34,517 bases of DNA from assembly GCA_003551645.1 (NCBI GenBank), contig PUND01000099.1, forward strand, positions 1-34,517. Reading direction: 5' to 3'. Under the pieces are notes generated by a model. It saw nothing but the letters and a program-made list of their open reading frames with translations, did not search any database and had not been told where the DNA came from. Positions 20,741-33,115 of this stretch are shown here, piece after piece. A program made the translations under genes and the position numbers. Origin of the DNA: Phycisphaerae bacterium (GTDB lineage: Bacteria; Planctomycetota; Phycisphaerae; SM23-33). How positions within the stretch are numbered: the first letter of the stretch is position 1; the number at the start of each line of letters is the position of its first letter.

Positions 20741-22216
20741 TCACACGACGTGGCCGGTCAGGCCGTCTTCCGAGATGCCCTCGATGGCGAAGGTCAGGAC
20801 GTTTCCGGTAAGGTCGGCCTTGCCCTGGGAGGCAAAGCTGACGGTCTGGTAGCGGTCAGTCATGGCGACGCGTCGGCCGTCGTCTCGCTCGGTTGACTCG
20901 ACAACTCCCTCGAGCACATCGCCGATGAATCGCCGCCGATAGTCGCGGGCGGTCTCCGTCGCCAGCGAGGTCAACTCCTCCATCCTCCGCCGGACCGTCG
21001 CGGCGGGCGGGGCCTGGTGGCGCAGCCGCCAGGCGGCGGTGCCTCGGACCGGACTGAATGGAAAGGCGTGTACCCGCGCGAAGCCCGCCTCGCGGACCAT
21101 TCGCAGGGTCTCGGCGAAGTCGGAGTCGGTTTCGCCGGGAAAGCCCACGATGATGTCGGTGGTAATCGCCGGGCGGTCCATCGAATCGCGCAGGCGCGCG
21201 AAGGCGTTGCGATATTCGGCTGTGTCGTACTGGCGGTTCATCCGCCTGAGCACATTGTCGGAGCCGGACTGCAGCGGCAGGTGCAGGTGCGGCGCGACCT
21301 TCGGGTTATCCCGGATTACCGCCAGCAGTTCGTCGGTCAGGTCGCCCGGCTCCAGACTGCTCAACCGCACGCGCCAAAGCCGTTCCATCCGGGCGATGCG
21401 CTGCAGCAACTCCGCCAGCGGCGACGATGTGTCGGCCCAGCGGCGGCGGACGGCGGTATCCCGGCCGTAGGCGCCGAGGAACACCCCGCAGAGGACGATT
21501 TCCGGGTGTCCGGCCTCAACCAGCCGGGCGCATTCGGCGACCACATCGTCGGCCGGCCGCCAGCCGACCTCCGGGCGGCAGTGGGGCACTATGCAGTAAG
21601 AGCAGAAGGCGTCGCAGCCGTCCTGGACCTTAACGAACGCCCGCTGTCTGTCCTCTAAGCGGTCGATGCCGTCCGGAGCGGAGATGACATTGGACTTGAC
21701 TGAGCCGGCCTCAAATGATGAGATGATGTTGTCGGGCGGTGCGGACGGCTTGGTGTCCGTTTCGGACTCCGAATTCATCAGTTTGTCATTCCTGAAACAA
21801 CCAGCCCGCTTGTCCGTAGGAACGGATCCCCTGGACCGCTGGTCGGGCTTCTGCGCATCGCGCAGGAAGCGCCCGAGCCAGTCGGCGAGGTCGTCATGAC
21901 GGCCGAGGACAAAAGCTTGAGAAGACCGAACCCCCGCTTCGGCGAGCACGCCGGCGATCGTATCGGCGTCGTATCGGCCGTAGCAGCCGAGCACGAGCAC
22001 GCCGGCTCCGGGGGCGGCGCGGACGGCGCGGCGGATGGCCTGGCGGCTCTTTCGCATCGCGGTCCGTGTCACGCAGCAGGTGTTGATTACCACAAGATCG
22101 GCCCGGGCGCCTTGCTCGACCCGCCGCATCCCGGCGCGGCGGAGCATTGCCGAACAGGCGGCGCCGTCGTACTGATTGACCTTGCAGCCCAGCGTTGTCA
22201 GGGTGAATCTCGGCAT
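20741..22216 (-). CDS. mtaB: tRNA t6A37 methylthiotransferase MtaB
   Basis: MtaB is a radical-SAM enzyme that turns t6A at position 37 of tRNA into ms2t6A. From the ATG at 22216 it has 491 residues. The N-terminal UPF0004 domain has TLGCKVNQ (Cys11), INTCCVT (Cys47) and LGCYGR (Cys78) for the auxiliary cluster. The radical-SAM cluster is CDAFCSYC (Cys201, Cys205, Cys208). A TRAM-like domain ends the protein. GCKVNQYD is the MtaB-type signature, distinct from MiaB and RimO. A linker of about 60 residues (about 121-183) between the first two domains is longer than usual and looks foreign. A longer frame from 22453 runs through the divergent promoter region and is rejected. Confidence 0.93.
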   Translation of the reverse strand: MPRFTLTTLGCKVNQYDGAACSAMLRRAGMRRVEQGARADLVVINTCCVTRTAMRKSRQAIRRAVRAAPGAGVLVLGCYGRYDADTIAGVLAEAGVRSSQAFVLGRHDDLADWLGRFLRDAQKPDQRSRGSVPTDKRAGCFRNDKLMNSESETDTKPSAPPDNIISSFEAGSVKSNVISAPDGIDRLEDRQRAFVKVQDGCDAFCSYCIVPHCRPEVGWRPADDVVAECARLVEAGHPEIVLCGVFLGAYGRDTAVRRRWADTSSPLAELLQRIARMERLWRVRLSSLEPGDLTDELLAVIRDNPKVAPHLHLPLQSGSDNVLRRMNRQYDTAEYRNAFARLRDSMDRPAITTDIIVGFPGETDSDFAETLRMVREAGFARVHAFPFSPVRGTAAWRLRHQAPPAATVRRRMEELTSLATETARDYRRRFIGDVLEGVVESTERDDGRRVAMTDRYQTVSFASQGKADLTGNVLTFAIEGISEDGLTGHVV

Positions 22217-22252
22217 AAACGCACACATTTGAGTCCGGCACGTATGAAAGCA

Positions 22253-22281
22253 TTGTGGCGAGGCCGGGAAAACCATAATAT
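22253..22281 (+). promoter_or_regulatory. Probable promoter of the secretin operon
   Basis: TTGTGG (22253-22258) and TAATAT (22276-22281) are spaced by exactly 17 bases in the 202-base gap between the divergent mtaB and pilM genes. A transcript starting near 22290 would carry a leader of about 130 bases before the PilM start. Confidence 0.5.
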
Positions 22282-22321
22282 AGGGGGTGCCGGCGGCAGG
22301 CCAAGTCCGGCCGCAGGCGAC

Positions 22322-22391
22322 AGGACCTTTTTGGGTTTGTACGAGCCGGTCCTTTTGCAACCCCATGGCAAGGTCGTCTGCCGACCTTGCC
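22322..22391 (+). promoter_or_regulatory. Structured 5' leader of the secretin operon
   Basis: AGGACC (22322-22327) pairs with GGTCCT (22348-22353). GGGTT inside that loop (22333-22337) can pair with AACCC downstream (22359-22363), which would make an H-type pseudoknot. A separate perfect 10-bp hairpin, GGCAAGGTCG (22367-22376) with CGACCTTGCC (22382-22391), follows, 16 bases before the ribosome-binding site GAGGAG (22408-22413). I do not recognise a known riboswitch class. Confidence 0.45.
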
Positions 22392-22418
22392 CCGGCGGGA
22401 TTTCGCCGAGGAGACATC

Positions 22419-24455
22419 ATGGCTAAGCCGACAAGAGTATGGGGCATAGACATCGGGCAGTGTGCCCTAAAGGCGCTTCTGCTCAGCGAGGGTGAAGAGG
22501 GTCTGGAGGTCGAGGCGTTCGACGTGATCGAGCACCCTCAGATTCTCTCGGAACCGGATGTGGACGTTGACGAGTGCATCCGCAACGCGCTGGAGCAGTT
22601 CCTGGAGCGCAACGACATATCGGATGCCCAGGTAGCGGTGGCGGTTCCGGGCCAGAGCAGCTTCACCCGGTTCGTCAAGCTCCCGCCGGTGGAGCCGAAG
22701 AAGATACCGGACATAGTACGCTTCGAGGCCGAGCAGCAGATTCCCTTCCCCATCAACGACGTCGTCTGGCGTTACCAGACCTTCCAGGTGCCCGACAGTC
22801 CGGACGTGGAGGTGGGAATCTTCGCGATGAAGAAGGTGGACGTCGGCAAGGTGGTTCAGCACTTCAACGACGTCGAGTTTCCGGTGGACGTGGTGCAGAT
22901 GGCGCCGCTGGCGTTGTATAACTTCATGGTTCGCGACGACCAGCTCGCCGAAGAGGGCGCCACGCTGCTGGTGGACGTCGGCGCCGACAAGACCGACCTG
23001 GTGGTCGCCGACGGCGCTCGCATCTGGACGCGGACCATCCAGATAGGCGGCAACAGCTTCACCGATGCGCTTGTCCGGTCGTTCAAGCTGTCGTTCGCCA
23101 AGGCCGAGAAGCTCAAACGCTCCGCAGCCGGAAGCAAATACGCCAGGCAGGTATTCCAGGCGATGCGGCCGATATTCGCGGACCTGGTCCAGGAGATTCA
23201 GCGTTCGGTTGGCTACTACAGCTCGCTTCACCGCGATACGCGATTCCGTCGTCTCGTTGGTCTGGGCGCGGGTTTCCGCCTGCCGGGGCTTCAGAAGTTC
23301 CTGGAGCAGAACCTAAACATCCCGGTCAGCCGTGTGGACGAATTCAACAACCTGAAGCCCGGCAGCGACGTCAACGCCCCGGCGTTCGAGGAAGGCGTGC
23401 TGTCTTTCGGCGTTGCGTACGGTCTGGCGGTTCAGGGGCTGGGTTCGGCGCCGGTGGATACGAACCTGCTTCCGGATCAGGTTGCCCGCCAGCGTTTGTG
23501 GTCGCAGAAGCAGCCCTGGTTCGCGGCCGCGGCGGCGTTGATTATCGCCATGCTCGGCGTGCCGGTGTATCGGGCTTATATGGACAAGCAGGCGCTGGCC
23601 GAGAGCGACGACCTGCGTGAGGCCAGGCGCATATCCTCGGAGCTGGAGGATGTACAGCGGCAGTACAACCAGCTCCAGCAGCAGCGGGATGAGGCGATTG
23701 AGAGGATTCAAGGTGTCGGACAACTGTTCGGGTACCGTGAATTCTGGCCATCGGTTGAGGCCGCGATCGGCGGCTCGGTTCAGTCGGTGGTCCGCCATCA
23801 GAACCTGCTGAGTGAATATGCGGCCGCGGATTCGTCTTCACAGCGGGAACAGGTTCTGGAGCGGATTCGGGACGTCCCGCGTTCGGAGCGTCGGATGATC
23901 TTCATGGAGGAATCCGGCGTTCGCTATCACGCCGATATCTCGGATCTGGACGCCAACATGCTGCTAGAGGGGCGCACGCCGGACAGAGACCAGGCGCGAT
24001 CCGGCGGGACGGACCGTTCCCGCCAGACCGCCGATGCTCGGAACGCCCGCCAAGAGGCAAAGCCCGGATACTGGGTGGTCTTTACCGGACGGACGCCCCT
24101 TTCGGGTGACCGCACGAACGTGATGCTTGCGGAACTGTCCAGGGAGGTCCGTGGGCTGTCTGAAAACCTGCCGGCGATTGAGGTTGTGGATGTAACGTTT
24201 GATTTCACGTCGATGGGCGGCGATTTGAGCACCGGCATCGACGGAATAGGCAGAGCAACGCAGGACCGTTCCGGCACGAGGCGAGACCGGCGATTCGAGG
24301 AATGGGACGGAGGGCGGACCGCCGCCGATCAGCAGGTGGAAATGCCCGACCCGCTGGTGTCCGGCGAGTCGATGCGGCAGGACACCCGGTTCGTTGTCGG
24401 CATGCTGGTGGCTGTCAGCGGAGACGGCGTCGATATGGAGTTTCCCGAGCAGTAA
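22419..24455 (+). CDS. PilM-PilN-like fusion protein (Amuc_1101/GspL-like)
   Basis: This 678-residue protein spans the inner membrane once. Residues 1-345 are a PilM actin-like ATPase fold with phosphate loops GIDIGQCALKAL (9-20) and LLVDVGADKTDLVV (183-196), and the adenosine motif GLGAGFRLPGL (281-291). Residues 349-352 read NLLP, the core of the INLLP peptide by which PilN normally binds PilM. A membrane helix at about 366-384, a coiled coil (about 390-430) and a periplasmic part to 678 follow, as in PilN. The layout therefore equals PilM and PilN in one chain, or GspL. The ATG has GAGGAG 5 bases upstream. It begins a five- or six-gene plus-strand run ending with the secretin and YdjY genes. 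Confidence 0.85.
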   Translation: MAKPTRVWGIDIGQCALKALLLSEGEEGLEVEAFDVIEHPQILSEPDVDVDECIRNALEQFLERNDISDAQVAVAVPGQSSFTRFVKLPPVEPKKIPDIVRFEAEQQIPFPINDVVWRYQTFQVPDSPDVEVGIFAMKKVDVGKVVQHFNDVEFPVDVVQMAPLALYNFMVRDDQLAEEGATLLVDVGADKTDLVVADGARIWTRTIQIGGNSFTDALVRSFKLSFAKAEKLKRSAAGSKYARQVFQAMRPIFADLVQEIQRSVGYYSSLHRDTRFRRLVGLGAGFRLPGLQKFLEQNLNIPVSRVDEFNNLKPGSDVNAPAFEEGVLSFGVAYGLAVQGLGSAPVDTNLLPDQVARQRLWSQKQPWFAAAAALIIAMLGVPVYRAYMDKQALAESDDLREARRISSELEDVQRQYNQLQQQRDEAIERIQGVGQLFGYREFWPSVEAAIGGSVQSVVRHQNLLSEYAAADSSSQREQVLERIRDVPRSERRMIFMEESGVRYHADISDLDANMLLEGRTPDRDQARSGGTDRSRQTADARNARQEAKPGYWVVFTGRTPLSGDRTNVMLAELSREVRGLSENLPAIEVVDVTFDFTSMGGDLSTGIDGIGRATQDRSGTRRDRRFEEWDGGRTAADQQVEMPDPLVSGESMRQDTRFVVGMLVAVSGDGVDMEFPEQ

Positions 24456-24474
24456 CCGCCGGGAGGAACACGAC

Positions 24475-25950
24475 ATGAACTTTATTCGAGAAAACATGGT
24501 GCTGATGATAATCGCCGGCGTGGTTGTGGTAGTCGGCGGCGGGCTGCTGTTCATCGGCCGTTCCTGGGGCAGCGAAGTCCGGGACCTGGTCGATGAGCGG
24601 GACGAGCTGTCGCGCAACCTCCAACGCCAGGCCGGCGGCGAGCGGATAAGCCCGGATAAGATTGAGGCCAAACAGGCCAGCGTCGAGCGGCTGAAAGAGC
24701 AGGCCGACGCCGCGGCCGCCGAGACCATGGAATGGAACCGGCGCGATTACGAGATTATTAAGCTTACCGCCGGAGACCGCGAGGTGCCCGCATTTCCCCT
24801 CGACTCTGACCTCTACAGGGAGTACGGCCTGCGGTACAAGTTCATGCTGGCTTACAACGACTCGCTGGGTTCCCTGGTGGAGCCGCTTCGAGTCACCCGG
24901 CCAGCCACGCCGGAGCAGATCGAGTCCCGGGCCGTCCTCTGGGAGGAGCATATCCAGGACCAGCCGGATGCCGACGAGCAGCCGCAGCAGCAACCGGAGT
25001 ATGATCGGCGTCAGATGGACGATGATTTCATTCGTGACCGTGGCCGCCGCACTCAGCAGGCCGGCAGAACCTCCGACTCGGACATCGATGTCAGCGACCA
25101 GGCCCGCGCCTATGCGGTCCACGATGCCATGCGTCAACAGGCCCAGGCCGGGCTGATTTACCTCAGCCCCGAGGATGCCCTGCACAACCTGCTGCCCGAA
25201 CAAGCGGTCAGCCGGGCCGCCCTGACCGACGAGCTGCTCTGGCAGGCGCAGGTGAACCTGTGGGTTCAGCAGGACATCCTGAGTGCGATTAACGACACCA
25301 ACGAATCTTTCATAATTGAAGCCGGCGGCGACCCCGACGTGGCGGGAGTATTCGACTCGGCAGTCAAGCGGCTTGTCAGTATAACGGTTGAGCCGCATTA
25401 CTACGGTGCCGAGACGCAGCCCGGGAGGTCCAGGTCGGGCGGTGATTTCGACCGGGGCAGAAGCGCCGCTAGAGCCGACACGGCCCGGCCGACGGCCGCC
25501 CCGCAAGTAGCCCCTACGCTGACCGGCCGGGTGACCAACGACAGGTACGAGGTGGTGCAGTACAGTTTCACCGTAGTCATGCGGCCTGAGCAGAAGGTCC
25601 GACTGATGGAGAAGCTGATGAGCCGCAACTGCCACGCGGTCCTTGAGCGGCGGGTCGGTCCGGTCGCAGCACCGGATGGACAGCAGTCCGGCCGTTCGCA
25701 GGACGAGGGGCTTTATGAATACGGGCCGGCCCCGGTGCGGCAGGTGACGTTCAAGGGCGAATTGCTGCTTATGGTCCCTTGGACTCGCGGCCAGTGGGAC
25801 GACGAGGCGGATGCGTGGCGCGAGGATAGTCCGCCCCTGACCCCGGTGGATGTTCTGCGACAGATACCCGAAGAAGCCCTGCGCGATGAGGACATGCGTC
25901 GCGTCCGGGACGAAAGCGGCGGCGACACGGCCGCTGCGGGCCTTCGGTAA
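24475..25950 (+). CDS. Single-pass membrane protein at the PilO position (Amuc_1100-like)
   Basis: The 491-residue protein has a short cytoplasmic end, one membrane helix (about 8-27), a coiled coil (about 33-85) and a large periplasmic region. That region has a disordered Gln/Arg/Asp-rich stretch (about 160-210) and another Arg/Ser/Ala-rich one (about 315-350). The topology and coiled coil match PilO/GspM, and its place directly after the PilM-PilN fusion is the pilO place. In Akkermansia the equivalent slot is held by Amuc_1100. I infer relation by position and topology only; I do not see clear sequence identity. The start is set by GGGAGGAA at 24461-24468. Confidence 0.7.
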   Translation: MNFIRENMVLMIIAGVVVVVGGGLLFIGRSWGSEVRDLVDERDELSRNLQRQAGGERISPDKIEAKQASVERLKEQADAAAAETMEWNRRDYEIIKLTAGDREVPAFPLDSDLYREYGLRYKFMLAYNDSLGSLVEPLRVTRPATPEQIESRAVLWEEHIQDQPDADEQPQQQPEYDRRQMDDDFIRDRGRRTQQAGRTSDSDIDVSDQARAYAVHDAMRQQAQAGLIYLSPEDALHNLLPEQAVSRAALTDELLWQAQVNLWVQQDILSAINDTNESFIIEAGGDPDVAGVFDSAVKRLVSITVEPHYYGAETQPGRSRSGGDFDRGRSAARADTARPTAAPQVAPTLTGRVTNDRYEVVQYSFTVVMRPEQKVRLMEKLMSRNCHAVLERRVGPVAAPDGQQSGRSQDEGLYEYGPAPVRQVTFKGELLLMVPWTRGQWDDEADAWREDSPPLTPVDVLRQIPEEALRDEDMRRVRDESGGDTAAAGLR

Positions 25951-25979
25951 GACGGCGAGTTTACGAGGAGTCCGGCGCA

Positions 25980-27725
25980 ATGGCCAAAAATAGCCCGCTT
26001 GAAATGATCGAGCAGCACGTAGAGAAGGGCGTGCTGGTTTTGATGGCGCTGCTGTTCCTTGTCGTGCTGGCGAGGTGGGGACTGTCTTCGCCAAGGCGGA
26101 TAGAGGTAATCAGCGGCCCCGGCGCGCGGACCGAAGCCGCCTCGCCGTCCGAGGCGGATGAGTTTCTGCGCCGCGCCGCCGCGGATATCCGGCGAATGCA
26201 CGAAGAGGCCGATCCTGAACCGGACCTGCAACCGGACCTGGCCGATAGGATCCAACGCTACCGTCGGCCGCGGCTGGAGGATTATTATCACGACGTAACG
26301 GTTGCGCAGCCGAGGCGGTGGGTCGAACTGCCGATGCTGGGCCATGAGGAGGTCCAGGTAACGCTTGCGTCGCTGACCGAGGCGATCCCCGCGCCGTCGA
26401 ACCCGCGGGTCAACGTCGATCGTGTCCTGCCCTACCGGCAGGATCCGCAGGATCCGCAGGGTCCTCAGGAGACCTGGGTCTCGCACGTGGCGGCGGTTTA
26501 CCCGTGGGGAGAGCTTAGCAACAACTGGCAGCAGCGGCTTCGCGGGACTCGTGTGCCGCCGCGAGTGGTGGTGCTGGGTGTAGAAGCGGAAGTCCAGCAG
26601 CGCGGACCGGACGGGCAGTGGGCGGATGCGCGTACCGTCCAGGGCGTTGCCGCTGGTGGAGAAGACGGCCGACCCGGCGCGGTCAGTTGGGATGTGCCCG
26701 ACTATGACGGGACCAATGTCAATCAGGTCCGCCAGACCATAGAGCGCATCGTCAACGCCCAGAGGCAGTCGCCGAGGATCATTCAGCCGGAATACTGGCA
26801 TATATACTGGCCTTCGACTCGCGAGTGGGTCCCGTGGCGCGTCAACCTGCCGGAAACCCCGGTCAGCCGCATGGCCGAACCGGCTGACGCCGACGTTGCC
26901 GCCGTTGACCGGCGCGGCGATGCCGCCTTCAGGCAGGTCGCCGACCAGCCCGATGATGCAGACGATACCCCCACCCCGACTCCGGTGCCGCCGATCTCCA
27001 CGCAGATAGAGGGCGGCAACGTCCTGGTCTGGGTTCACGACGAAAGCCCGCAGAGCCGCCGGGCGTACCGGTATCGTGTGCGCCTCAGATTGCTGAATCC
27101 GCTGTACACGTGGGACGGTTATGTCGAGGATGCCGAGGACGCCCGCGAGCAGGCCGTTTACACGCCTTTCAGCGACTGGTCCGAGCCGCATGAAGTCGAT
27201 CCGGATGTTCGATTCTTCCTGATCGGCTCGCAGCCGCCTCAGCCCGACAGGGGCATCTCCGGACGTTTAGTCGTGGAGGTCTTCAGTCGCAGTTTCGGGC
27301 AGGTGGTCCGGCACCGTTTCACTTTGTCTCCGGGTGACAGCATAGGCGGAACCGATACGGTCGAGGTCATGAATCCGATAGAGGGCGAGGCCACCGAGGT
27401 CGAGGTGAATTTCACCACGGGCGCTGTGGCCGTGGATTTCGAATTCGACAGGGAAATCGAGTTCCTCGGACGGACCCGCACGACGGCCGAGTTGCTGTAT
27501 CTGGATGAAAGCGGACGAATGAACTCCCGGATACTGGCGGCGGATCGTGACTCAGAAGCATACAGGGAACAACGCAGTGCCGCTGAAGCAGCCGAAGCGG
27601 CCGACCCGGCCGACAGGCCCGAGCAGGAGCCGCGCCGACGGGACCGCTGGGAGGAAGACTTCCGGCGCGACCGCCAACGGGAAGAGGACTTCGACCGCCG
27701 CCGCATGCGAGAACAATTGCAGTGA
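25980..27725 (+). CDS. Single-pass membrane protein at the PilP position (Amuc_1099-like)
   Basis: The 581-residue protein has one membrane helix at about 16-32, then a long periplasmic part. A Pro/Gln tandem (DPQDPQGPQ) lies near 155-163, beta-rich segments extend through about 500, and a highly charged Arg/Glu tail runs from about 525 to 581. In pilMNOPQ operons this position encodes PilP, which docks the inner-membrane complex on the secretin. PilP is a much smaller lipoprotein, and no lipobox is seen here. In Akkermansia the slot is Amuc_1099. Function is inferred from position and topology. GAGGAG lies 9 bases before the ATG. A 222-base gap separates it from the secretin gene. Confidence 0.68.
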   Translation: MAKNSPLEMIEQHVEKGVLVLMALLFLVVLARWGLSSPRRIEVISGPGARTEAASPSEADEFLRRAAADIRRMHEEADPEPDLQPDLADRIQRYRRPRLEDYYHDVTVAQPRRWVELPMLGHEEVQVTLASLTEAIPAPSNPRVNVDRVLPYRQDPQDPQGPQETWVSHVAAVYPWGELSNNWQQRLRGTRVPPRVVVLGVEAEVQQRGPDGQWADARTVQGVAAGGEDGRPGAVSWDVPDYDGTNVNQVRQTIERIVNAQRQSPRIIQPEYWHIYWPSTREWVPWRVNLPETPVSRMAEPADADVAAVDRRGDAAFRQVADQPDDADDTPTPTPVPPISTQIEGGNVLVWVHDESPQSRRAYRYRVRLRLLNPLYTWDGYVEDAEDAREQAVYTPFSDWSEPHEVDPDVRFFLIGSQPPQPDRGISGRLVVEVFSRSFGQVVRHRFTLSPGDSIGGTDTVEVMNPIEGEATEVEVNFTTGAVAVDFEFDREIEFLGRTRTTAELLYLDESGRMNSRILAADRDSEAYREQRSAAEAAEAADPADRPEQEPRRRDRWEEDFRRDRQREEDFDRRRMREQLQ

Positions 27726-27832
27726 TTTTTGCTCTTGCAATGCGGTAGTGGGCGCGTGTATTTTCTGCGAACTGGATAGCGCGGGGCGGCCGCTTAGGCC
27801 GAGGCCGCGCAAGCCGCACCCGCCGAGCCGGT

Positions 27833-27862
27833 GCAAACCGGAGACGATCCGGAAGACAAAGC
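27833..27862 (+). promoter_or_regulatory. GEMM-I-like (cyclic di-GMP) motif upstream of the secretin gene, tentative
   Basis: GCAAACC (27833-27839), a perfect 5-bp hairpin CCGGA/TCCGG with loop GACGA (27838-27852) and GACAAAGC (27855-27862) follow in the order seen in c-di-GMP-I riboswitches (GCAAACC, hairpin, GACGCAAAGC). The GNRA tetraloop is replaced by a five-base loop, and the second helix of the class is not clear. It lies 86 bases before the secretin start in a 222-base gap. Confidence 0.25.
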
Positions 27863-27947
27863 GGTCGGACCGTGCCGGCCGTTGATACCATAGACATCGC
27901 GCTCTCAGGGCAGAAGGTGAATAACGCCTTTTGAAAGGAGTTGAGCA

Positions 27948-30900
27948 GTGTTAGCTCTCCGTCGATCCCTTTGCTTGGCCTTTTCGCTGGCCTTGCTACT
28001 GTCGTTGAGTTCTCTGGTGTCGGCCCAGGACGCCGACGCGGACCAGGCCCGACAAATGCTTGAAGAGGGCATCTCCGAGTATGAGGCCCTCGAGTTCGAC
28101 CAGGCAAGAGACACGCTGATGCAGGTGGAGGCCGCCGCGCTTTCCGCCGATGAGCGTGAACTTCTGGACGAGTATCTGCGGATGACGAATACCGGTATCC
28201 GCAGGCAGGCGTCCGCTACGGAGGCGTTCGAGGCCGCCCAGCTCGCTCTGGAGCGAGGCGACCTTTCGTCGGCGGAGGCCGGCTTCACCGTCGCGGCCGA
28301 AAGCGAGTATGTGCAGGCCGAGATCCGGCAGGAGGCCGAGGAGCAGCTCGCCCTTGTGCATGAACGCCGCGAGCAACAACAGGACGCCGAGGCCGACATC
28401 GAACCGGACATCGACGAGCTTATTCCGGAAGGCGAGCCCCAGCCGCTGGAAGATGCCCCGGCGCCGGATCCGGACGAACCCATTGACGATCCGGATGAGA
28501 ACGACGTTCCGCTAGACATTGAAGACCCCGACGAGATTGAAGTTCCAGACGACGTTGAAGTTCCGGATGACGTTGACCCGGTGGGCCCCGCTGATGTCGA
28601 TCCGACCGAGCCGGTGGAAGTCGATCCGGTTCCGCCGCTGGAGCCGCGCGTTGCGGACGATCCGGTGGTCTCCCGGCTTCAGCAGAGGCGTCGGTTGGCC
28701 AAGCAGCAGGCGGACCTGGAATATGAACGGGCGATGCGCCGCAGTCGCGAAGCGCTGGCCGTGGCGGACTCCGCCGCGGAATTCGACAGCGCCACCGAGC
28801 ACGCCCGGGTAGCCCGCGACGTTGTCGAGCGGAACAGGGAGCTTTTTACCCCCGAGGAGTACCGGGAGCGGACAGAGCAGGCCGAAGACCAGATCGAGCA
28901 CATTCGCAGGCAGCGCGACGACTGGGCCAGAGAGCAGGCCCGTGAGCGGCAAAGGGAGCTTATCCGGCTCCAGGAGGAGCGCGAGCGGCGAGAGGCCCGG
29001 CAGCGGCAAGAGAAGATTGAGACGCTCAGGGAGCGGGTGCGATCGCTAGAGAGACAGCAGCAGTATTACCAGGCGCTGGATACGGTCGAGCAGATACTCC
29101 GGCTGGACCCCGAGGACACCTGGGCGGTTTACCGACAGGACTGGCTCCAGACGCTGGTGCTCGTGGACGACCAGGACTTCATCGAAGACCGCGCGCTGCA
29201 TCAGGAGCAGCAACTGATGCTGGACGTGCAGCGTTCGGCGATTCCGTGGCACGAGCTGCTGAGATACCCTCGCGACTGGAAAGAGCTGACCGCCAGGCGG
29301 GAGGGTGTGGAAGCCGAGATGACCGCCGAGGCCGAGCGGGACCGCATCGTCCGCCAGCAGATGAGGGACCTGATGCTTCAGAGGATAGATTTCGACGCCA
29401 TCGCCTTCAGCGATGTGGTCGATTTCCTCAGGGAGGTCTCCGGCCTGAATATCTACGTCAACTGGAACGCCCTGCAGAAGGTCGGCGTTGACAGGACGGT
29501 GCCGATCAATGTCCAGCTCAGGAACGTCACGTTCGAGCGGGTCCTGCGGACAGTGCTGGACGACGCCGGCGGCATCGCCGCGGAGCTGGAATACACTATC
29601 GAAGACGGCGTCGTAACCGTATCCACTGAGGAAGAGCTTGCCCGCAGGACGGTAACTCGCGTCTATGACGTAATGGACCTCGTCCACCCGATTCCCGATC
29701 ACGCCGCACCGGACGTGCAACTTGGCCGGGTCGAAGCTAACGGCCGTGCGCCGGGCAATGGAAACGGGTTGTGGGGCAACGGCGCGGTCAACGGAAACGA
29801 CGCGCCGGGGCGTGGCGAGATGATTGAGGGGATCATCACGCTTATCGAAGAGACCATCGATCCCTATTCCTGGCGGCCGACCGGCGATGTCGGGGCTATT
29901 CGGGAACTGGGCGGGCAGCTTGTTATAACTCAGACTCCCCGGAACCATCAGTCCATCGTCAGCTTGTTGGGCCAGCTTCGCGAGGCCGCCCAGTTGCAGA
30001 TATCCATTGAGGCGCGGTTCATAAGCGTCAGCACGAGCTATCTCAACAGGATCGGCGTGAACCTGGACTTCTACTTCAACCTCGCCTCGCCGCTGGGCTC
30101 GGACACCGCGGTCGATCCGTGGACCGGGGCGGAGGTCCCGCTCATAGGGCCTGGTTCGGGCTGGGGACCGGGCGGCTTCAGCTCCTCGAGGTTCACGCCC
30201 ATACGTGCCGGGCGTGTCACTTCCGAGTGGACCGGCGCTGTCTCTTCGGGTGTTCCGGGCAGCATTGCGGGGGCGGTTACCCCGTTCCAGATTGCGGGTA
30301 CTTTTCTTGACGACATCCAGGTTAATTTCCTCCTCGAGGCCGTGCAGGCCCACGAGGGTTCGCGTACGCTGAACGCCCCGCGGGTGACCATGCTCAGCGG
30401 GCAGCGTGCCAACGTGGCCATCACCCAGCAAATCCGGTACGTCGAGGATGTTGCCGTGGACCGCGAAACCGTTGATCTGGACAACGGCGACCAGCCGATT
30501 ACCACCTTCGACTACGACTTCCAGACGCTGGAGTTTGGTACCGTGCTGGATGTGCGTGGTACGGTCTCGGCGGACAGACGTTACGTGACGCTGAACCTCA
30601 GCCCGCAGATTACCGACGTGATCGGCTTCGACACCTTCGTCATCGGTTTCGACCCCACAACCGGGGAGGAGATAATAACCCAGCAGCCGAGGGTCTCCAG
30701 ACAGGGTGTCCAGACCACGGTGACAGTCCCCGACGGCGGCACGCTCATGATCGGCGGGCAGAAGATGGCTGGGAAAACTGAGCGAGAGCAGGGCGTGCCT
30801 CTGCTGAGCAAGATTCCCGTCATCAACCGTGCGTTTACCAATCGCGCGGAGGTCCGCGACGAATACTCGCTGCTGATCCTCGTCAAGCCCAAGATCATAA

Positions 30901-30959
30901 TCCGCGACGAGGCCGAGCAGAGAGAGGAACTCTGGCAGGAAGACCCGATGCTGCCGTGA
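27948..30959 (+). CDS. Secretin outer-membrane channel (PilQ/Amuc_1098-like) with long N-terminal extension
   Basis: This 1003-residue protein forms the outer-membrane ring of the system. A signal peptide (1-26) is followed by TPR-like helices (30-145) and an acidic Asp/Pro/Glu linker (148-235). A charged coiled coil (240-370) and more helices to about 470 come next. An STN/N0 domain (about 478-562) and an N1-like domain with a Gly/Asn insert (597-623) precede the secretin core (about 686-985). The core carries the usual VPDGGTLMIGG and PLLSKIPVINRAF motifs (927-963). The extension before N0 is far longer than in PilQ. The start is GTG with AAGGAG 7 bases upstream. It lies at the pilQ position of the operon. 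Confidence 0.9.
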   Translation: MLALRRSLCLAFSLALLLSLSSLVSAQDADADQARQMLEEGISEYEALEFDQARDTLMQVEAAALSADERELLDEYLRMTNTGIRRQASATEAFEAAQLALERGDLSSAEAGFTVAAESEYVQAEIRQEAEEQLALVHERREQQQDAEADIEPDIDELIPEGEPQPLEDAPAPDPDEPIDDPDENDVPLDIEDPDEIEVPDDVEVPDDVDPVGPADVDPTEPVEVDPVPPLEPRVADDPVVSRLQQRRRLAKQQADLEYERAMRRSREALAVADSAAEFDSATEHARVARDVVERNRELFTPEEYRERTEQAEDQIEHIRRQRDDWAREQARERQRELIRLQEERERREARQRQEKIETLRERVRSLERQQQYYQALDTVEQILRLDPEDTWAVYRQDWLQTLVLVDDQDFIEDRALHQEQQLMLDVQRSAIPWHELLRYPRDWKELTARREGVEAEMTAEAERDRIVRQQMRDLMLQRIDFDAIAFSDVVDFLREVSGLNIYVNWNALQKVGVDRTVPINVQLRNVTFERVLRTVLDDAGGIAAELEYTIEDGVVTVSTEEELARRTVTRVYDVMDLVHPIPDHAAPDVQLGRVEANGRAPGNGNGLWGNGAVNGNDAPGRGEMIEGIITLIEETIDPYSWRPTGDVGAIRELGGQLVITQTPRNHQSIVSLLGQLREAAQLQISIEARFISVSTSYLNRIGVNLDFYFNLASPLGSDTAVDPWTGAEVPLIGPGSGWGPGGFSSSRFTPIRAGRVTSEWTGAVSSGVPGSIAGAVTPFQIAGTFLDDIQVNFLLEAVQAHEGSRTLNAPRVTMLSGQRANVAITQQIRYVEDVAVDRETVDLDNGDQPITTFDYDFQTLEFGTVLDVRGTVSADRRYVTLNLSPQITDVIGFDTFVIGFDPTTGEEIITQQPRVSRQGVQTTVTVPDGGTLMIGGQKMAGKTEREQGVPLLSKIPVINRAFTNRAEVRDEYSLLILVKPKIIIRDEAEQREELWQEDPMLP
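28539..28574. repeat. 18-base direct repeat within the secretin acidic linker
   Basis: GAAGTTCCAGACGACGTT and GAAGTTCCGGATGACGTT stand in tandem with two changed bases and encode two copies of EVPDDV. The linker probably grew by repeat expansion. Confidence 0.75.
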
Positions 30960-30990
30960 CGCATCGGCGCACATTAAAGCAAGTACACAA

Positions 30991-31024
30991 CGGGCCGCAT
31001 GCCTCCGGACGGGCGCGCGGCCCG
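30991..31024 (+). terminator. Hairpin between the secretin and YdjY genes
   Basis: CGGGCCGC (30991-30998) and GCGGCCCG (31017-31024) pair perfectly, and ACA/TGT extend the stem beyond one mismatch. The hairpin begins 32 bases after the secretin stop codon, in a 216-base gap. There is no U-tract, so it may attenuate or protect transcripts rather than terminate them. Confidence 0.4.
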
Positions 31025-31175
31025 CTGTACATGTATGAAGGCCGTATGGCGGGAGCCAAGACCAGTTTGGTCGCAGCTGGAATTGCGGCCAACGGCTCGG
31101 CCGGCCGGCTGTCTGTTGAACCAGGAAGCAACGGCGGCGGTACAAAACACTAAGAGCATTACTCGGAAGGTGAGT

Positions 31176-32336
31176 ATGAAAGCTTATATGGCGATGGCTC
31201 TGGCACTGACGGCGGTTGCCGGCGGTATGCCGGCACTGGCCGAGCAGGCGGCGCCGGCGGAGGACAGTGAGCTTGTCAAACTGCCCCATCTTACGGTCGA
31301 TACCTCCGCCCGACGGATAGTCATGGATACCGCGGTGTCGCTGCGTGAGGGGTTCCTGGAGCACCTGGTGTGCAAGGTGGGCACCAAGGAGTATGAGAGC
31401 ATTCTGCACACCGAGGCCGAGGCGGCGCACCTCCACGCGGCGCTGCTGATGCTCGACCTGACACCCGGCAAGCCGGCCGAGTGGGTCGAAGTGGGTGATG
31501 AAGCCAGGGTACTTCCGCCGCGAGGCGGGGAAGTGACCATCAAGGTACGGTGGAAGGACAGTTCCGGCGAACAGCGGGAGGCCCCGGCCGGATATTGGCT
31601 CAAGCCCGACCGCGACGTGGGGCCGCCCGGCCGCTGGGTGTTTGTCGGTTCGGAGGTGTTTCCCGACGGGCGATACTGGGCCGATGTTGACGGAGACGTG
31701 ATAACGGTCGCCAACTTCGATTCGGCCGTGCTGGATGTGCCCTTCGAGAGCACCGACGACGACGAGATGCTGCTGTACGAGGCCCATACCGAGCGCATCC
31801 CGCCGAAGGGCACGCCGGTTGAGGTCATCATCGAGCCGGTGGAGGGTGCCGAATCGGCCGACCACGCCCGCGCGCTGCTGGAGATCGACGGCGACGGGCG
31901 GCTGCAAATCGACGGCGAGGACATCTCCGCTGACGATCTCAGCGACTGGGCCGAGGCCTTCAGGCGCCGCCACTCCAGGCCCCGTGTGGTTATCCGGCCC
32001 GATCCGGAGGCGATGATGTGGGATGTTACGCGCGCACGCTCGGAGCTTCGGTTCGGGGGCGTGCGCGACTTCGACCTGCGGTATCGTTCCGGCGATGCGC
32101 GTGTGGTGCCGCGAACGTCCGAACAGGTCGGCAGCATGCTCGACCGGTGGCGCGAGAGGTTCTCGAACCCGCAAGACTTCATCCGCGACCCCGGCGAGGA
32201 ATCCGAGGAGATACTTGAACGCGTCAACAGCCGTATCGAACGCCTGGAAACGCACCGGGACCTGCTTGAGCAATACGCCGAGCAACTCGAGGTTATGCGG
32301 GCCGACTACAAGGCGGCCGCCGAGGAGGCCGAATAG
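31176..32336 (+). CDS. YdjY-domain protein with an ExbD/TolR-like segment
   Basis: This 386-residue exported protein has a signal peptide at 1-22. Residues about 38-225 are a YdjY domain: GFLEHLVCKVGTKEYESIL (59-77) and the HAALLMLDL segment (87-95) follow E. coli YdjY closely. Residues about 235-303 read like the periplasmic domain of ExbD/TolR, with LQIDGEDISADDLSDWAEAF then RPRVVIRPDPEAMMWDVTRA. Residues 315-386 form a coiled coil. The start ATG at 31176 is set by GGAAGG 5 bases upstream; a longer frame from 30999 is rejected. It follows the secretin gene and precedes a membrane gene by 11 bases. The function of YdjY is not known. Confidence 0.78.
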   Translation: MKAYMAMALALTAVAGGMPALAEQAAPAEDSELVKLPHLTVDTSARRIVMDTAVSLREGFLEHLVCKVGTKEYESILHTEAEAAHLHAALLMLDLTPGKPAEWVEVGDEARVLPPRGGEVTIKVRWKDSSGEQREAPAGYWLKPDRDVGPPGRWVFVGSEVFPDGRYWADVDGDVITVANFDSAVLDVPFESTDDDEMLLYEAHTERIPPKGTPVEVIIEPVEGAESADHARALLEIDGDGRLQIDGEDISADDLSDWAEAFRRRHSRPRVVIRPDPEAMMWDVTRARSELRFGGVRDFDLRYRSGDARVVPRTSEQVGSMLDRWRERFSNPQDFIRDPGEESEEILERVNSRIERLETHRDLLEQYAEQLEVMRADYKAAAEEAE

Positions 32337-32347
32337 GCCGCCTATCG

Positions 32348-33115
32348 ATGGAGCCAATGGACCAGCCCAACGAAGCTGCACCCCGGCCCCGATCGCGATG
32401 GATTCGTGAGCTGTTCCGCGGCCATGGCCGGGCCGTGGTCCTGGCCGCCGCGGCCACGATCGCCGTGCAGGTCGGGGCCTTTATTGCGGCCAGGTGGGCC
32501 GGTATCCCACCGGCGCGGGCGTCGTCGGCCACGCTGGCCGTGGCGACGCTGTGGGTGGCCGTTGTCTCGGCGCCGCTGGCGTCGGCGGGTAAGACCGCGA
32601 TCGGTTCGCTGCTGCGGGGCGGCGTGGTGGTTGATGCCTCCATACCGGCGCTGGTGGTGCTGGCGGCCGCCGGACCGGTGACCGTTATCGAGGCGGTGAA
32701 GGTTTATCTGATACTGGCGGCCGTCGCCCTGTTCGCGGTTGCCCTGGTCCGCGTCGCGCGGACGGCACGGGGTCGCGGTGCGCTGGCGGTGACGGCATCG
32801 GTGTTGCTTTTTGTGCTCCTGGCCTCGCCGCTGTGGGTAGCCGGGCCGGCCGACGCGACGTCCGGGAACCTCAGTCGGGCCGTGGTCCGCTTCGCGGTGA
32901 CGGCCAACCCCTTCTACGCGGTCTCCTCGGCCGTGGTCGGGTCAACGGGGTTTGTCTGGCATCAGGCGCCTGTGATGTATCCGCTGACGTGGCTGGGCGA
33001 GCACCTGAGTTTTCCGCCGGTCCGGTGGCATCACACAGCGGTGCTCTATGGCTGTATCGCGGCAATCCTCGGCGGTGTGGCCATGGTTCGCGGCAAAGGC
33101 CGCACGGAGCCGTGA
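32348..33115 (+). CDS. Polytopic membrane protein, unknown
   Basis: This 255-residue protein has about six hydrophobic helices (about 28-49, 60-80, 98-137 as two, 146-165 and 230-248). A larger extracytoplasmic stretch at 166-229 contains NPFYAVSSAV and PVMYPLTWLGEHL, which look conserved rather than random. It has no motif I can assign. It begins 11 bases after the YdjY gene and is almost surely in the same transcript. The ATG at 32357, with GGAG 4 bases upstream, is an equally good start. It converges on the flavodiiron gene, separated by 58 bases that hold no clear terminator. Confidence 0.72.
   Translation: MEPMDQPNEAAPRPRSRWIRELFRGHGRAVVLAAAATIAVQVGAFIAARWAGIPPARASSATLAVATLWVAVVSAPLASAGKTAIGSLLRGGVVVDASIPALVVLAAAGPVTVIEAVKVYLILAAVALFAVALVRVARTARGRGALAVTASVLLFVLLASPLWVAGPADATSGNLSRAVVRFAVTANPFYAVSSAVVGSTGFVWHQAPVMYPLTWLGEHLSFPPVRWHHTAVLYGCIAAILGGVAMVRGKGRTEP

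Follow-up and report, generated by a model that had tools for sequence, protein, structure and literature searches.

The presence of a gene run resembling the alignment operon of a type IV pilus, with neither a motor nor a pilin gene beside it, raises the question whether such a locus encodes a self-contained connection between the inner and outer membranes or one part of a machine whose other parts are encoded elsewhere. A block of this kind occurs at positions 22419-33115 of the window, i.e. the whole stretch of 34,517 nucleotides analysed here, from a genome of 2.83 Mb in 150 contigs (94% complete) for which a planctomycetal host was supported. All six plus-strand open reading frames described in the original prediction are present (Table 1), and the evidence discussed below suggests that the block is very probably one half of a split type IV pilus machine, comprising the alignment proteins and the outer-membrane gate, and that the other half is encoded at an unlinked location, on contig C87 of the same genome.

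Table 1. Genes of the block and its upstream neighbour, with the basis of each assignment
Feature	Positions	Strand	Basis
MtaB/MiaB-like radical-SAM tRNA methylthiotransferase	20741-22453	-	own sequence, CxxxCxxC radical-SAM region
Gene 1, PilM-PilN fusion, 678 aa	22419-24455	+	PilM Pfam match
Gene 2, PilO/Amuc_1100-like inner-membrane protein, 491 aa	24475-25950	+	AlphaFold2 model and PDB fold matches
Gene 3, Amuc_1099-position protein in PilP slot, 581 aa	25980-27725	+	position, conservation
Gene 4, PilQ/Amuc_1098-type secretin, 1003 aa, GTG start	27948-30959	+	Secretin domain
Gene 5, exported YdjY-domain protein, 386 aa, accessory	31176-32336	+	NCBIfam
Gene 6, polytopic membrane protein, 255 aa, accessory	32348-33115	+	5 predicted TM

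The first protein of the block carries an actin-like PilM domain in residues 1-340 (PF11104, PilM_2; E 1.5e-40 with Pfam), followed by the PilN-type motif NLLP at 349-352, a predicted transmembrane helix at 366-384, a periplasmic coiled coil and a C-terminal region, and therewith both the PilM and the PilN NLLP motif of the type IV pilus. NLLP is the N-terminal motif of PilN that binds PilM, and PilM and this motif serve pilus assembly in the known machines. The phmmer alignment with the crystallised PilM:PilN chimera 5eou reaches the PilN part and ends at NLLP, and a profile of 40 relatives of gene 1 compared by hhalign with the PilN of the same genome aligns from NLLP through the transmembrane helix and the coiled coil (E 5.9e-4). 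The NCBIfam model Amuc_1101_fam matches gene 1 over residues 1-451 of 678 (E 5.2e-79, the best value obtained) and likewise matches all 40 of the 40 relatives. Since gene 1 is a PilM-PilN fusion, the M-N-O-P-Q slots are filled by four genes; the proposed pilM-N-O-P-Q order thus holds as a succession of slots, with the qualification that M and N are fused and that the secretin adjoins inconstantly.

The original prediction noted unusually large proteins in the two middle slots, and the reading frames of 491 and 581 residues bear this out. The AlphaFold2 model of gene 2 (pLDDT 84.5, pTM 0.77, 62 sequences) has a transmembrane helix at 9-27, a long coiled coil, a helical insert and a C-terminal beta-alpha-beta-beta domain, and its top fold matches in the PDB are Amuc_1100 (6kny, prob 1.00, E 4.4e-3) and PilO (2rjz, prob 1.00, E 1.9e-2). 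Ranks 1-14 of the Foldseek search are all Amuc_1100 or PilO (prob 0.90-1.00, E 0.004-0.1); the E-values are modest (0.004-0.02 for the best matches), yet no competing family appears. Sequence comparison with PilO by Pfam and hhalign shows almost no similarity, so that the identity is provided by structure only, while the NCBIfam match to Amuc_1100 (E 1.5e-5) lies under the curated cut-off. The 491-residue protein is therefore, on its predicted fold, PilO-like, and it was through fold search that the transmembrane, coiled-coil and ferredoxin-like protein of the PilO type was located in the block.

The protein in the PilP slot presents a different picture. Its model (AlphaFold2, pLDDT 85.0) comprises a transmembrane helix at 17-35, two beta-rich periplasmic domains and C-terminal helices, for which Foldseek returned no credible PDB fold match and Pfam no match. 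An assignment as PilP was considered and rejected, searches with Pfam, NCBIfam, PDB sequences, hhalign and Foldseek all being blank; likeness to PilP or GspC was detected neither by HMM nor by hhalign nor by fold, and the hhalign comparison with the PilP of its own genome gives 0.3%. Amuc_1099_fam does not match gene 3, and only one of 37 relatives was matched (E 0.034). Gene 3 is thus the truly unfamiliar component, the only one whose known counterpart, Amuc_1099, is given by position alone. The possibility, foreseen as contrary evidence in the original prediction, that the two middle proteins are ordinary PilO and PilP with insertions, is accordingly borne out in part for the 491-residue protein, which is PilO-like, and not for the 581-residue protein, which is not recognisably PilP.

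Gene 4 encodes a secretin of the PilQ family, as required of a type IV pilus, with a Secretin domain (PF00263) at 799-984 (E 3e-27) and NCBIfam matches to MshL (E 3.4e-28) and Amuc_1098_fam (E 3.5e-25), the latter under its curated cut-off. The very long extension noted for this protein was found to comprise about 480 N-terminal residues, TPR-like and acidic in character with a weak TPR_14 match at 358-395, and is reminiscent of the N-terminus of Amuc_1098, which is reported to bear TPRs (PMC4960237). Window-type secretin genes are doubled in tandem after the 581-type gene at L089:10917-17274 (G025) and L102:2-4098 (G005). The YdjY/ExbD-like gene and the membrane protein gene following the secretin were also as described: gene 5 matches the NCBIfam YdjY domain (E 3.2e-48), its weak ExbD-like segment being sub-threshold in Pfam (E 6.9e-5), and would encode 445 residues if started at the upstream ATG at 30999. 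Gene 6 has no Pfam match and comes after the YdjY gene at several loci from the same family.

Conservation of the block was examined with neighbour counts from six-frame HMM searches, restricted to distinct loci with enough sequence. Downstream of the PilMN gene, and on its strand, lie the 491-type gene in 95/96 loci and the 581-type gene in 86/86, while the secretin adjoins these first three genes in only 37/76 and YdjY comes after the secretin in 15 of the 42 loci with room for it; therefore, the three genes constitute the core of the block. The gene run starting with PilMN is more than a product of chance. The spacing within the window is 19 and 29 bp between the first three genes and 222 bp ahead of the secretin, and in relatives with adjoining genes the pre-secretin gap is mostly about 110-430 bp, in contrast to the tight first three genes. 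The gaps at 27726-27947 and 30960-31175 may contain a promoter or an attenuator. The upstream neighbour, MtaB/MiaB-like to judge from its sequence, has a divergent counterpart directly upstream in 32/91 loci and is a synteny marker outside the machine.

Homologues of the 581-residue protein were found in 66 of 80 relatives. A separate scan retaining record names yielded 80 loci, nearly all labelled as Phycisphaerae, Sedimentisphaerales or Planctomycetota MAGs. The block also occurs in MAG records labelled Actinomycetes, Vicinamibacteraceae and Actinomycetota (L210, L219, L225); the public labels look wrong, L210 and L225 apparently corresponding to genomes of the class of the window, G042 (C21) and G051 (C113), respectively. 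In the sampled Planctomycetota, a strong fused PilMN (E < 1e-50) is present in 91/138 genomes, and the 47 genomes devoid of it, many of which still have a C87-like PilB, may use a different alignment complex. Some homologue of PilB1 of the C87 cluster is present in all 138 of the 138, and the scores of PilMN and PilB1 correlate across the phylum (Spearman 0.72, confounded by query distance and phylogeny); on account of this confounding, the correlation was set aside as evidence for pairing.

The absence of an ATPase, a pilin and a PilC/GspF gene from the window was borne out and extends to 95 related loci, where no homologues of PilB, PilC or pilins lie near the block; two of these loci have a PilT-like gene in the vicinity, and one a TadA-like gene. 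This absence is the main reason for considering the block a stand-alone envelope bridge, in which the four proteins would join the inner and outer membranes with neither fibre nor motor, and the crateriform structures of planctomycetes have indeed been likened to press studs joining the two membranes (PMC5394234). However, the partners exist when the whole genome is searched (12 matches of the T2SSE family and 10 of the T2SSF family with Pfam). Contig C87 encodes PilB1-PilT-PilB2-PilC, five pilins bearing the N-methylation motif PF07963 and, at the end of the cluster, an 878-residue protein with no Pfam match, and no PilM, N, O, P or Q and no secretin was seen in the cluster as read. Motor, platform and pilins, confirmed with Pfam, are thus available genome-wide in a cluster lacking exactly the parts that the block supplies. 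Retention of PilM and of the NLLP motif, together with the constant presence of a C87-type PilC in genomes with a single PilM (see below), also argues against a bridge, which the original prediction had offered as a possibility in place of a classical pilus; we consider it highly improbable and reject it. The second contrary observation foreseen there, that pilB, pilC and pilins lie nearby in related genomes, was not made: these genes are not nearby in relatives, but they are present elsewhere in the genome.

Four other clusters of the genome were compared with C87. The C60 cluster includes PilM-N-O-P-Q (384, 212, 176, 197 and 684 aa, respectively) with its own PilB and PilC; the C19 cluster has PilM-N-O with PilB, PilT, PilC and pilins; C137 encodes a type II secretion system with GspL, and C89 a Tad-like system. 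Only in C87 are the missing parts precisely those encoded in the window. C87-type clusters were read in about 30 genomes of the class; their gene order is constant where they are complete, and they never include PilM-Q. The C87 PilC shares 50-69% identity with its counterparts, as against 31-33% with the paralogues of its own genome.

Some observations on the remaining clusters are recorded here. A giant type II-type secretin on contig C93 (L032:1-7452) contains 24 Secretin_N stretches and a secretin domain in an open frame of 2816 residues cut by the contig start, and a 707-residue piece with six more such stretches and an N0 domain at the end of C137 (L028:15523-17643) may be its beginning. 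Relatives have open frames of up to 5073 residues (G049) and 4754 residues (G040), and the giant secretin may span an unusually deep periplasm. Flagellar-looking genes, judged by sequence only, share C137 with the type II secretion cluster (L034:2825-15053).

The evidence for pairing of the block with the C87-type cluster comes from genomes of the class, 40 of which were surveyed. As almost every genome of the class has both halves, their co-occurrence there is weak evidence. Physical linkage of the block and the C87-type cluster is absent in four single-contig genomes, where the halves are separated by about 98 kb (G054), 743 kb (G039), 1.36 Mb (G071) and 1.38 Mb (G066). Most weight is carried by the genomes with one PilM. 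A single PilM (PF11104), of the window type, is present in G041, G050, G059, G067, G073 and G079, which belong to one family (f6), and also in G051 of another family, the C19-type and C60-type PilM being gone from the genomes with window-type PilM only. All seven keep a C87-type PilC, and their other PilC-like genes sit in T2SS-like or divergent clusters; G050 has in total a single gene each for PilM, PilC and the secretin. Since no other known PilM is available to the C87-type motors in these genomes, they speak more strongly than any other observation for a single machine in two parts. From the one-PilM genomes, the kept PilC and the recurrent C87-type clusters, we infer that the PilMN gene and its block are the probable partners of C87.

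The sole genome among the 40 surveyed with no block, G049, keeps the C87 cluster and was considered as a counter-example, but is uninformative, as the syntenic place of the block is a 16-kb run of N (L231:4001-20000) with both flanks matching G066. In G053 and G062, which are fragmented, the 581-type gene was found and PilM was not.

The block might instead serve another motor cluster or several, C19 for example, or its secretin might be shared among systems, since the search found five motor clusters but no more than four secretin genes, and none was called in the stretch of C19 that was read (L025), a cluster that may borrow its secretin from elsewhere. C19, however, has its own PilM-N-O, and the genomes in which the window-type PilM is the only one keep the C87-type cluster in the absence of PilM of the C19 and C60 types, so that service to another cluster appears very unlikely.

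In the split pilus machine favoured here, the PilM-PilN fusion would form a cytoplasmic ring with the PilN tail, the PilO-like and the 581-residue proteins an inner-membrane and periplasmic cage, and the secretin the outer-membrane gate. A fibre of C87 pilins would be extended and retracted through the cage by the two PilBs and PilT, working on the platform formed by PilC. The homologies, the fusion, the conserved split and the retention of both halves in the one-PilM genomes are shown by sequence; the physical assembly of the two halves, the fibre dynamics and a use in binding macromolecules or surfaces are proposed by analogy with Akkermansia MUL2 and the dextran-binding pili of planctomycetes. 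Given that PilC and the pilins are accompanied by PilT and two ATPases of the PilB type, the likeliest output is a dynamic pilus.

A type II-like secretion or polysaccharide uptake system, in which macromolecules would be pumped or pulled by a short pseudopilus in place of a long surface pilus, overlaps with the pilus machine on its parts and differs on its output. The MUL genes of Akkermansia are needed for accumulation of mucin products in internal compartments (PMC12418764; for MUL2, PMC13174399), dextran binds pili-like fibres at the crateriform structures of Planctopirus and Gemmata (PMC5394234), and the very large 878-residue protein with no Pfam match ends the C87 cluster. PilT and two PilBs favour a retractable type IV pilus instead, and the described Phycisphaeraceae have no visible crateriform structures but do have fimbriae (PMC8882080), which makes a pseudopilus somewhat unlikely. 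For Planctopirus limnophila, mutants lacking three pilQ-like genes singly or all together exist (PMC11958385). A more specific proposal, which we regard as rather unlikely, is that the block and the C87-type cluster constitute a planctomycetal macromolecule-uptake machine homologous to MUL2, whose retractile fibres would pull polysaccharides through the secretin into an enlarged periplasm; if this were true, an ancestral polymer-fishing pilus of the PVC bacteria would follow.

The analysis thus extends a system known from mucin handling and host effects in Akkermansia to most of a second phylum, identifies a probable partner cluster that adjacency alone would hide, and singles out a conserved protein of the PilP slot with no known fold match. 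By analogy, the two gene sets are candidates for the unsolved intake of whole polysaccharides into the planctomycetal periplasm. A report of this system from Planctomycetota was not found in the open-licence literature.

Among the known systems, the type IVa pilus of Pseudomonas, Myxococcus and Thermus shares with the block the PilM fold, the NLLP motif of PilN, a PilO-like fold and a PilQ-family secretin, and PilB, PilT, PilC and pilins are encoded in the present genome too. The block differs in the fusion of PilM with PilN, in an operon unlinked from the motors, in a PilO-like protein of 491 residues as against 176 and 208 for the genome's own PilOs, and in the PilP slot, which holds an unrelated 581-residue protein with a transmembrane anchor. 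The C60 cluster of the same genome fills the same slots with small, canonical, unfused versions linked to their own PilB and PilC, and hhalign of its PilO and PilP with genes 2 and 3 detected no similarity beyond the transmembrane segments.

The Akkermansia locus Amuc_1098-1102, named in the original prediction as the nearest arrangement, retains that place (Amuc_1101, E 5e-79; Amuc_1098, E 3.5e-25; Amuc_1100, E 1.5e-5). Within it, Amuc_1099-1102 form MUL2, linked to mucin transport in the available part of PMC13174399, which reports synteny within Verrucomicrobiales and there makes no extension to Planctomycetota. The available parts of the published descriptions name no motor beside the locus. 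Akkermansia possesses the pilin-like gene Amuc_1102 (MUL2A). The upstream neighbour of the block is the divergent MtaB-like gene, and no Amuc_1102-like gene was noticed among the neighbours as read. Gene 3 is devoid of an Amuc_1099_fam match, and the block, as in part of the class, has the YdjY and membrane protein genes in addition. Because the curated NCBIfam cut-offs are not reached (three matches below the Amuc equivalog thresholds, 266.7/650, 24.6/180 and 88.2/750 bits), the block is a variant and not a member of Amuc_1098-1102. Nevertheless, the order starting from the PilM gene is the same (1101-1100-1099-1098), Amuc_1101 is a PilM-type protein with an extension matching gene 1, the crystal structures of Amuc_1100 are the best fold matches to gene 2, and Amuc_1098 and gene 4 are both TPR-bearing secretins. 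Thus, by order, fusion, fold and secretin, the Akkermansia locus is the system most similar to the block.
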